A DNA stretch of 64,000 nt from Paraburkholderia sp. D15 (GTDB lineage Bacteria > Pseudomonadota > Gammaproteobacteria > Burkholderiales > Burkholderiaceae). Location of the stretch: NCBI RefSeq assembly GCF_029910215.1, contig NZ_CP110395.1, positions 3,286,001-3,350,000 of the forward strand, in the 5' to 3' direction. Below the pieces are notes generated by a model, which saw only the letters and a program-made list of their open reading frames with translations, was not told the DNA's origin and ran no database searches. Position numbers and translations under genes: made by a program. This document shows positions 2,128 to 4,397 of the stretch, piece after piece (position 1 is the first letter of the stretch; each line of letters begins with the position of its first letter).

Positions 2128-2160
2128 AAAAGCGCCCAATTTGGGCGCTTTTTCTTTTTT
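2128..2160 (+). terminator. Rho-independent terminator of efp
   Basis: A 12-bp perfect stem (2128-2139 with 2141-2152, core AGCGCCCA/TGGGCGCT) is followed by a T-rich tail. In practice the A/T bases at the tip open into the loop. It lies 68 bp after the efp stop. Confidence 0.9.
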
Positions 2161-2280
2161 GCGCCGCCGTGTATGGTTGAGGAAAACTTTACCGGCGGAC
2201 TGTTCAAAATTGCCTGATCGCTATCCGAAACTACCCATCCCGCATCTAACAAACCATTGATAAGCTTAAGTAAATGCCAT

Positions 2281-2296
2281 TGGCACGGTCCCTGCT
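2281..2296 (+). promoter_or_regulatory. Sigma-54 (-24/-12) promoter of the csbD-like gene
   Basis: The sequence TGGCACGGTCCCTGCT matches the sigma-54 consensus TGGCACGNNNNTTGCW at every defined position except one (C for T just before TGC). The GG and GC elements have the exact required spacing. The predicted transcription start is near 2307, giving a leader of about 45 nt before the ATG at 2351. An NtrC-type sigma-54 activator is encoded 470 bp downstream, which makes a local regulatory circuit plausible. Confidence 0.85.
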
Positions 2297-2350
2297 TCAT
2301 ACGCTAGCAGGCCAATATGGCTTTATTTTCCTCAACTCCGGAGATGCGAC

Positions 2351-2557
2351 ATGAATAACGACATCGCTGAAGGCAAGTGGAAGCAGATGCTGGGCAAGGC
2401 CAAGACCGCATGGGGCGAACTGACGGACGACGAGCTCACCAAGGCCGAGGGCCGTGCCGATAAACTCGCGGGCCTGATCCAGGAACGCTACGGAAAAACG
2501 CGCGAACAGGCTGAACTCGAAGTCAGGCGTTTCTTCGATAGCAACCGGGATTTCTGA
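2351..2557 (+). CDS. CsbD-family stress-response protein
   Basis: This is a 68-aa, highly charged helical protein with the CsbD signature (NDIAEGKWKQMLGKAKTAWG near the start). CsbD proteins are abundant under general stress in many bacteria, and their biochemical role is unknown. GGAG lies about 9 bases before the ATG. The gene is preceded by a near-consensus sigma-54 promoter, which would make it nitrogen-, envelope- or signal-dependent rather than constitutive. The neighbouring response regulator is the obvious candidate activator, but this link is inferred from position only. Confidence 0.9.
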   Translation: MNNDIAEGKWKQMLGKAKTAWGELTDDELTKAEGRADKLAGLIQERYGKTREQAELEVRRFFDSNRDF

Positions 2558-2648
2558 CAGCCCGAATGAAGGAAGTACAGGTTGCCTGCTCGCACGCTCT
2601 TTTGGGTACGCGGCAGGCATCCCGTTCAAAGCAAAGGACCAGAACTAC

Positions 2649-2813
2649 ATGAGTCGAAGCGCCGCGTTATCCGGCCGTCACACGAGCGCCGTGCCCGCCA
2701 CGGCAATCACGTCCGGCAGCGACGCAGCCCTCGACCGTCAGTACCGGCCAGCCATCGCGCCCGTGCAGCACGCCCGCATTCCGGCGTCGCGCACAGGTAT
2801 TTCATCCATCTAG
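2649..2813 (+). CDS. Possible small hypothetical protein
   Basis: A 54-codon frame (starting MSRSAALSGRHTS) opens 91 bp after the csbD-like stop and ends 13 bp before the response regulator. An AGGA lies about 12 bases upstream of its ATG. It has no motif I recognise and a composition (Ala, Ser, Arg) that GC-rich DNA produces by chance. It may be a short leader peptide, a real small gene or noise. Confidence 0.3.
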   Translation: MSRSAALSGRHTSAVPATAITSGSDAALDRQYRPAIAPVQHARIPASRTGISSI

Positions 2814-2826
2814 AACTGCGCTCGCC

Positions 2827-4209
2827 ATGCCACACGCCCTGATTGTTGAAGACGATCCCAATAGCCTGTCAGGCCTGTCCGCAATCCTCGCGGCCGACGG
2901 TTTTTCCGTCGACACCGCCACCACGATCGCCGAGGCGCGGGCCGCGCTGACACGCTTCATCCCCGATGTCGTACTGGTCGACCTGAACCTGCCGGACGGC
3001 AGCGGCCTCGACGTGCTGCAGCACCTGCCCGCGCATCCGCCCGGCGGCGCCCTGCCCGTCATCGTGATGACCGGCAACGCGACGGTCGAAAGTGCGATCG
3101 AAGGCCTGCGCCACGGCATCTGGGACTATCTGCTCAAGCCGGTCAACATTCCGCGCCTGCGCAGTCTGCTTGCGCGTATTCCGCGTCCATACGAGCTGAC
3201 CGAGGAAGTGCAGACGCTGCGCGCGTCGCTGCGCCAGCTCGGCCGCTTCGGCGCGATGCTCGGCCGCAGCGGCGCGATCCAGCACGTGTACGACACCATC
3301 GAACATCTCGCGCCAACCGAGGCCGCCGTGCTGATTTCGGGCGAAGCCGGCACCGGCAAGCAGGTCGCCGCGCGCACCATGCACGACATGAGCCGCCGCC
3401 GCAAAGGGCCGTTCATCACGTTCGACTGCCGCAGCGCGGCCAGCGCCGCCGCGCATCGCTCGCTGGACAGCGTGCTGTTCGGCCACGAGCGTGGCGCGTT
3501 CAACGGCGCCGAACAGCGCGAGCCGGGCCTGTTCGAGCAGGCCAGCGGCGGCACGCTGTTCATCGACGAAATCTCCGAGTTGCCGCGCCCCCAGCAGGAA
3601 GCACTGCTGCGCGCGCTCGATTCGCAGACCTTCATGCGAGTGGGCGGCACGAATCAGGTGGTGACGGATTTCCGCCTGATCGCGTCGACGCGCAAGGCGC
3701 CCCGCGCGGCCGTCGCCGACGGCAGTCTGCACGAAGACCTCGCGCTGCGTCTCGAAGCCGCGGCGGTGACGTTGCCGCCGCTGCGCGAACGCGGCGAAGA
3801 TCCGGCGCTGATCGCCCAGGCGATCGTCGACGAGCTGAATCACGAAGCCGCCGCGCGCGGCACGGCGGAAGCGGCCAAGCAGATCGGGCCGAACTTCATC
3901 CGCGAATGTCTCGCGTACGAATGGCCGGGTAACGTGCGTGAATTGCAGGAGCGTGCGCGGCGTGCGTATCACGCGTCCGGCGACGTGCTGGAATCGCTGC
4001 GTGCCGACGAAGCCGGTTCAGCCAACGGCCGCGATCTGAATGGCAGCCGCGTGCAGGTGACCGTCGGCACACCGCTCGCGGATGTCGAGGAAATGCTGAT
4101 CCGCGCGACGCTGGATGCGGTCGGCGGCACGCGGCATCGCGCGGCGTCGCTGCTCGGCATCAGTCCGAAGACGCTGTACAACAAGTTGCAGCGGATGCGG
4201 TTGAATTAA
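2827..4209 (+). CDS. NtrC-family sigma-54-dependent response regulator with GAFNGA loop
   Basis: The 460-aa protein has three parts. Residues 1-118 are a receiver domain with acidic pocket D9/D10, phosphoacceptor D52 and K104. Residues 140-370 are an AAA+ domain with Walker A GEAGTGKQ (172-179) and Walker B GGTLFIDEI (241-249). The C-terminus is a Fis-type helix-turn-helix (GGTRHRAASLLGISPKTLYN). The sigma-54-contacting loop, normally GAFTGA, reads GAFNGA (223-228), and the sensor region is also divergent (DLALRLEAAAV in place of the usual DLYYRLNV type). No sensor kinase is adjacent. The upstream csbD-like gene has a sigma-54 promoter and is a likely target. Whether the protein activates transcription normally is uncertain because the loop Thr is important in studied family members. 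Confidence 0.92.
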   Translation: MPHALIVEDDPNSLSGLSAILAADGFSVDTATTIAEARAALTRFIPDVVLVDLNLPDGSGLDVLQHLPAHPPGGALPVIVMTGNATVESAIEGLRHGIWDYLLKPVNIPRLRSLLARIPRPYELTEEVQTLRASLRQLGRFGAMLGRSGAIQHVYDTIEHLAPTEAAVLISGEAGTGKQVAARTMHDMSRRRKGPFITFDCRSAASAAAHRSLDSVLFGHERGAFNGAEQREPGLFEQASGGTLFIDEISELPRPQQEALLRALDSQTFMRVGGTNQVVTDFRLIASTRKAPRAAVADGSLHEDLALRLEAAAVTLPPLRERGEDPALIAQAIVDELNHEAAARGTAEAAKQIGPNFIRECLAYEWPGNVRELQERARRAYHASGDVLESLRADEAGSANGRDLNGSRVQVTVGTPLADVEEMLIRATLDAVGGTRHRAASLLGISPKTLYNKLQRMRLN

Positions 4210-4239: not shown

Positions 4240-4280
4240 GCCGCCGGCTTGCTTGCGGCAGGAAGCTCCGGCTCATGAAA

Positions 4281-4317
4281 AACGGCGCCTTCAAAAATGA
4301 AGGCGCCGTTTTTTTTG
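4281..4317. terminator. Bidirectional terminator between the regulator and nagZ
   Basis: A 12-bp perfect stem, AACGGCGCCTTC with GAAGGCGCCGTT (4281-4292 with 4299-4310), is followed by eight T on the plus strand. On the minus strand the hairpin also ends in a T run. It sits between convergent genes and can serve both. Confidence 0.92.
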
Positions 4318-4397
4318 TCTCAGGTTTCCATTGGATCAGCGCAAGCGGGCGCCTGTTTTCAAACGCGAACGCGACAGCCACTTCGCTCGCCGAAAAC

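Follow-up and report, generated by a model that had tools for sequence, protein, structure and literature searches.

The question raised by this locus is which protein fires the sigma-54 box that precedes a csbD stress gene, when the NtrC-type response regulator (RR) encoded behind csbD carries GAFNGA as its motor loop. The window, that is, the whole stretch of 64,000 nucleotides that was analysed (G000:C1:3286001-3350000), comes from an 8.3 Mb genome in three contigs whose closest named relatives are Paraburkholderia. Near the box the gene order is earP, efp, csbD and the RR gene, followed by a nagZ-like gene on the opposite strand (Table 1). A sequence-only reading had taken the RR as the matching activator of the box and had noted that it lacked an adjacent kinase. 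The latter observation was borne out, as none of the six neighbouring ORFs scanned (EarP, EF-P, CsbD, a 54-aa ORF at 2649-2813 with no Pfam family, the RR and a GH3/NagZ-like protein) encoded one.

Table 1. Features of the csbD-RR locus, with positions in the window
Feature	Position	Strand	Basis or remark
Predicted intrinsic terminator of efp, splitting the csbD-RR unit from efp	2128..2158	+	stem of 11 bp preceding a T run
Candidate enhancer (UAS), palindrome GGAAAACTTTACC, consensus GGNAAANTTTNCC	2181..2193	.	conserved block about 94 bp upstream of the box
Weak IHF-consensus match WATCAANNNNTTR	2250..2262	-	perfect match on that strand in 15/88 loci, one elsewhere
Predicted sigma-54 -24/-12 promoter element	2281..2296	+	pattern match and conservation across orthologous loci
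csbD, first-gene slot of the putative operon	2351..2557	+	PF05532
NtrC-type RR with degenerate sigma-54 motor, constant gene of the unit	2827..4209	+	REC + Sigma54_activat + HTH_8
Likely terminator after RR	4279..4318	+	inverted repeat then T run, by eye; absent from the terminator scan list

As a bare pattern, the box (TGGCACGGTCCCTGCT) is unremarkable. It has GG at -24 (2282-2283) and GC at -12 (2294-2295) with the spacing that the sequence-only reading had described, and differs from TGGCACN5TTGCW at one position. Matches with up to two mismatches were fewer in the window than expected from shuffles (12 versus 16.0), and exact TGGCACN5YTGCW was not enriched genome-wide (25 sites versus 38 for the reversed control). 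What raises the box above chance is conservation, since it recurs between efp and the RR gene across orthologous loci. A total of 88 RR loci was used (30 as supplied and 58 hand-picked from the same list for diversity, not a random sample), and the 82 that had efp in the stretch served for the box and palindrome counts. With up to two mismatches the box was found in 65/82 loci, whereas 200 permuted motifs averaged 8.4 and never exceeded 30; with up to one mismatch it was found in 45/82 (permuted mean 0.5, maximum 7). Alignment of 28 csbD upstream regions showed GGCA and TGCT to be conserved amid diverged sequence. A second set of named relatives, which comprised the best 80 of 220, was biased to close ones (mostly Paraburkholderia, with some Trinickia and Caballeronia) and shared species with the 88-locus set. 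In this named set the box, with up to two mismatches, lay within 1 kb upstream of RR in 80/80 loci by a count made without shuffle control (63 with one mismatch, 17 with two). Although the lack of genome-wide enrichment of boxes of such quality would suit a chance match, this explanation can be practically discounted given the excess over every permuted motif and the unbroken occurrence in the named loci.

Sigma-54 control of csbD is thus well supported by phylogenetic footprinting, and we infer that csbD is sigma-54-dependent in the cell and co-transcribed with RR. The predicted efp terminator has a AAGCGCCC...GGGCGCTTTTT core at 90% or more in the 28-locus alignment; terminator-like matches in the scan were not above the shuffle mean (2 versus 3.3). 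A short hairpin followed by a T-rich stretch, which could be chance, is present in the csbD leader (2309-2323), after the promoter and ahead of the start codon.

The identification of the first gene downstream as CsbD was confirmed by Pfam (PF05532, 72.9 bits with a gathering cut-off of 40). CsbD occupied the first-gene slot in 30/34 genus-g1 loci, a BON-domain protein in 20/20 g10, 3/3 g16 and 1/1 g7 loci, and a DUF1328 protein in 1/3 g17 loci; no gene was recognised in the slot of the remaining loci with the CsbD, BON and DUF1328 queries, and in some other genera the box stood directly before RR. The slot of the 80 named loci held CsbD in 66, a BON-domain protein in four and neither in 10. 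In L074 and L091 the CsbD call is a remnant, of 18 residues and of 41 residues at 51%, respectively. These counts support a unit in which the cargo appears exchangeable and RR is the constant gene. The proposed sigma-54 wiring of csbD stands as far as footprinting goes, but it is not specific to csbD. No report of sigma-54 control of csbD was found by term searches of the open-licence PMC literature, nor was CsbD found by a term search in the main text of one Paraburkholderia rpoN paper. A second csbD in the same genome (PF05532; L153:17309-17500, G000:C1 near 1098240) is preceded by a putative GGGCACACCCGTTGCT box (L153:17240-17255), which ends about 54 bp before its start codon.

The next long gene had been described as an NtrC-type RR with a GAFNGA loop, and this description held: it combines a PF00072 receiver carrying the D, T and K residues with a sigma-54 activator domain and a PF02954 Fis-type HTH, and the loop lies at residues 223-228. 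Canonical activators have T at loop position 4 (GAFTGA), where the window RR has N in place of T or S. Both K178 of Walker A and D247 and E248 of Walker B are present. Arginine finger 1, in what we take to be the finger positions by comparison with PspF, is H302 in the window RR, whereas R occupies this position in all three solved structures aligned (LuxO 5ep0, 3dzd and 4l4u); R308 is kept, leaving one of the two fingers. Position 4 of the loop was N, S, G, A, D, P or T across the orthologues, or else the loop was replaced or shortened, with GAFSGA or GAFTGA in 19/34 genus-g1 loci (GAFSGA was also seen in two other activators of the source genome). The Walker B glutamate was replaced by Q in 20/20 g10, R in 3/3 g8 and N in 3/3 g17 sequences. 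Finger 1 was H or N in 29/34 g1 sequences. In the other genera, g17 apart, most sequences have R at finger 1 but carry altered loops. A full motor, defined as G[AS]F[TS]GA with Walker B DE and the arginine fingers, was found in 0/88 and 0/80 RR orthologues.

The remainder of the protein was far more constant. Receiver residues D52, T82 and K104 were retained in 88/88 orthologues and the recognition helix GISPKTLYNKL in 86/88; all 80 named RRs spanned 458-464 residues, and broken C-termini were seen in two of the 88 sequences. The nearest relative of RR in the genome is an activator paralogue, L009 (G000:C1:1089135-1090532; 47% identity, GSFTGA loop), and pN/pS was compared between the two in the 22 genomes with both genes available. 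RR gave 0.38 for AAA+, 0.084 for REC and 0.098 for HTH, and L009 gave 0.133, 0.126 and 0.070, respectively. The AAA+ value was higher for RR in 230/231 genome pairs, which are not independent, and among five close Paraburkholderia it was 0.192 for RR versus 0.028 for L009. On this comparative evidence, GAFNGA is best read as a single stage in the decay of the sigma-54 motor across the clade, and the data support an RR whose AAA+ motor has decayed with the receiver and Fis-type DNA-binding domain conserved. A structure model of RR built from a 12-row alignment had a mean pLDDT of 70.6, with a poorly modelled receiver and values of about 80-93 in most AAA+ blocks; it suggests that RR may still have the AAA+ fold. 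Two 4.1-Mb genomes of genus g1 (L121 and L124) showed RR identity down to 60-63% with a wrecked loop while efp was still at 96% and, in L124, csbD at 94%, as though AAA+ decay were fast in small genomes. According to PMC3162934, activity is mostly lost when the central F or T of the loop is changed; a NorR paper gives the same rule for most bEBPs and reports that NorR stays active with two changes at another loop position (PMC2941729). The term 'GAFNGA' itself gave no match in the open-licence PMC literature.

The sequence-only reading had also proposed a search of related genomes for a conserved enhancer site upstream of 2281, and this yielded the palindrome listed as a candidate UAS in Table 1. 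Anywhere in the efp-RR region, it was found without mismatch in 36/82 loci and with up to one mismatch in 58/82. Its centre lay 91-96 bp upstream of the box in 40 of the 64 loci having both elements, the remaining distances forming small clusters near 71, 108 and 117 bp within an overall range of 60-146 bp; sigma-54 enhancers lie roughly 80-150 bp upstream. Some helical phasing is hinted at by the spacing, a point that is not leaned on here, since the loci are related and the vector strength of the distinct values reaches only 0.47 at an 11-bp period. Within 160 bp of the box, the best palindrome of the named loci had no mismatch in 57/80, one in 21 and two in two, counted without a control. 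Three exact copies exist genome-wide, equal to the reversed control count, and only the 2181-2193 copy has a box downstream at enhancer distance. The strict combination of box and palindrome occurred in 26/160 genomes at 30 places (reversed control 5), of which 18 were the efp-RR locus, seven a recurring site judged coding-like by eye and five single; many variant sites escape this strict pattern, so the counts are no proof that the locus is unique. A regulon-wide box-palindrome module was considered and is unsupported, the strict pattern being nearly confined to the efp-RR locus. The weak IHF match in Table 1 was scored against what we take to be the IHF consensus.

The notion that the box simply tracks an intact RR loop was rejected. 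The box accompanied 18/18 loci with an intact GAF[TS]GA loop, but it was also kept in 47/64 loci with other loops (Fisher p 0.017, ignoring relatedness), so that some link between loop and promoter is possible. Twelve loci whose loop was classed by script as wrecked had the box, two of these being mild cases (GALSGA and GAFGAA). The other box-bearing genera (g10, g14, g8, g16, g17, g7 and g25) have L009 at 83-92% identity. Genus g12 was taken as Burkholderia because 12 of the 18 plasmid records matched by one g12 stretch, at up to 87% identity, are Burkholderia. In g12 the box was missing in 15/15 loci examined, and no close orthologue of L009 was found in the same 15 genomes, the best hit being at most 61% in 11 and absent at 1e-150 in four; this co-loss represents one lineage. 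Three weaker Burkholderia L009 hits, two from the 15 genomes and one from G049, fell in a different clade. Genus g25 is a partial exception, L009 being present yet the box lost in 2/5 loci. A -10-like GCATAAAAT is conserved upstream of RR in most of the 15 Burkholderia loci, which suggests a switch to a sigma-70 promoter. Most of these loci (L105-L115, L134, L135, L141, L142) also conserve a GGTAACTGTTTTA block, which on the opposite strand resembles half of the lost palindrome.

L009 itself is intact, with a full motor in 30/30 orthologues, unlike the orthologues of RR, and with a recognition helix (GISLKTLYNRL) similar to that of RR. The RR clade and the clade containing L009 were sisters (support 99/95 and 92/97) in a midpoint-rooted tree with several long branches, including that of L319. 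L009 is adjoined by a glycosyltransferase-20 gene (PF00982), read as otsA, with a conserved sigma-54 box. This box, NGGCAN6TTGCA, was present in 21/30 L009 loci (L160-L189; L153:10568-10583 in the source genome), and a second conserved box was found 3' of L009 in 22/30; together the otsA and L009 boxes may mark an osmotic-stress regulon under sigma-54. Five of nine g1 loci had the otsA box, preceded at 84-88 bp by a UAS-like palindrome in each of the five (mononucleotide-shuffle p 0.000-0.045); the remaining 16 of the 21 otsA regions scored gave no significant best match. The exact palindrome was sought in the L009 flanks and rejected as a feature of them, occurring with no mismatch in 0/30 loci and with one mismatch in three. 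Between two sigma-54 activators, a DUF883 (YqjD/ElaB-like) gene is preceded by GGGCACGGCGTTTGCA (L153:7016-7031, G000:C1 near 1088016), which directly adjoins GGCAAATTTACC, a sequence two mismatches from the csbD palindrome.

The earliest branch of the RR clade offers a glimpse of its possible history. The basal gene, in genome G017 (L319, also listed as L127), keeps DAFTGA and DE, with Y as finger 1, and ends a run of csbD, a gene for a holin-like protein (just under the cut-off), an ORF of unknown function and a gene for a protein with a DUF883 C-terminal region. The run lies behind a box (TGGCACGGCTCCTGCT), and its best palindrome-like site (GGT...ACC, 93 bp upstream) has three mismatches. 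The simplest history, drawn from this one basal genome, would start from a stress operon that activated itself in the ancestor and was later reduced to csbD-RR or its equivalent, with RR losing its motor and a trans activator taking over control.

Taken together, we somewhat favour a sigma-54 stress operon that is fired mainly in trans, probably by the otsA-linked L009, with RR as a DNA-binding phospho-regulator. In this reading csbD and RR would make up a single sigma-54-dependent stress operon, which the terminator separates from efp, and the comparative data argue that the -24/-12 box and the palindromic candidate enhancer are under selection and that the sister of RR is an enhancer-binding activator whose gene neighbours otsA. 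Because RR has lost motor parts that are needed, another activator probably fires the box, E-sigma54 at csbD being opened mainly by a protein encoded elsewhere. The intact L009, acting at the 2181-2193 palindrome, is the likeliest activator, though not an established one, because of its co-occurrence with the box, its flanking sigma-54 boxes, the palindrome at otsA and its place in the sister clade. Made from the same transcript, RR would be a phosphorylation-controlled DNA-binding protein without sigma-54 remodelling, answering to a presumed kinase, and would plausibly bind the same enhancer as feedback and act at other promoters. Against firing by L009 count the near confinement of the strict UAS-box pattern to the efp-RR locus, which equally suits a site private to RR, and the GAFSGA retained in many Paraburkholderia RRs.

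These same observations lend some weight to the explanation that RR still activates its own operon, with GAFNGA or GAFSGA as a working variant in Paraburkholderia and the palindrome as its private enhancer. All 18 scorable loci with GAFSGA or GAFTGA have the box, and the basal L319, which follows a box and csbD, keeps its DAFTGA and Walker B DE and has a palindrome-like site 93 bp upstream of its box. However, no RR orthologue keeps the full motor, the box is retained in genera whose Walker B glutamate has given way to Q, R or N or whose loop is replaced, and AAA+ constraint is relaxed even in close Paraburkholderia, so that self-activation is considered rather unlikely. The original proposal of the adjacent GAFNGA regulator as the matching activator is not supported: its loop varies across the clade, H302 stands at finger 1, the AAA+ domain is under relaxed constraint, and loci with a loop changed past recognition still have the promoter. 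That some trans activator other than L009 fires the operon is rather doubtful. The source genome has 20 strong sigma-54 activator domains including that of RR, with five weak matches besides, and the link between L009 and the enhancer is moderate, but presence of the promoter largely tracks L009 across genera, g25 excepted in part, and L009 belongs to the sister clade of RR.

A more far-reaching reading, similarly doubtful, is that after duplication RR became a phosphorylation-controlled antagonist of its sister activator, by way of the shared enhancer or of mixed rings. The receiver and DNA-binding domains would then be kept and the motor left free to decay, and the sigma-54 operon would be a negative-feedback module with exchangeable stress cargo as its first gene. 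It is, finally, very improbable that RR is drifting to a pseudogene without a role and that only csbD matters. AAA+ losses do differ between genera and the two broken C-termini would fit such drift, but the invariant receiver residues, the near-invariant recognition helix, the narrow length range of the named RRs and the persistence of RR where csbD is absent all speak against it.

The locus suggests that a large group of soil- and plant-associated bacteria places general-stress cargo (CsbD, BON-domain proteins and the trehalose synthase otsA) behind sigma-54 boxes. Ranging from nearly intact to wrecked, the orthologues form a natural series in which a sigma-54 activator loses its motor but the promoter persists, and on which the turning of such an activator into an ordinary or antagonistic regulator can be tested. 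The locus is also a caution against taking an adjacent gene annotated as a 'sigma-54-dependent regulator' for the activator.

Compared with known systems, the window csbD shares the PF05532 family with the CsbD/YjbJ stress proteins, but it stands behind a sigma-54 box, whereas CsbD in Bacillus is under sigma-B and the E. coli counterparts of several of the slot genes are sigma-S stress genes. In Salmonella, a table in PMC5437024 places yjbJ among small genes tightly controlled by sigma-S. RR has the REC-AAA+-Fis HTH layout of the NtrC type and LuxO, and the solved structures nearest to it in sequence are LuxO 5ep0 and the NtrC-family entries 3dzd, 4l4u and 1ny5; unlike these types, a complete sigma-54 motor is found in none of its orthologues. 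AAA+ regulators with an altered or missing GAFTGA, as in RR, include NtrC of Caulobacter and Rhodobacter, HupR, TyrR, DhaR, VpsR and YplP. Some altered-loop bEBP homologues regulate sigma-70 promoters, according to PMC10274813, and about 110 homologues with minor loop deviations are known, with Pro preferred at position 4, according to PMC3162934. RR differs from these known homologues in that its decay is patchy within one orthologous clade and in that the RR gene itself lies behind a conserved sigma-54 box.
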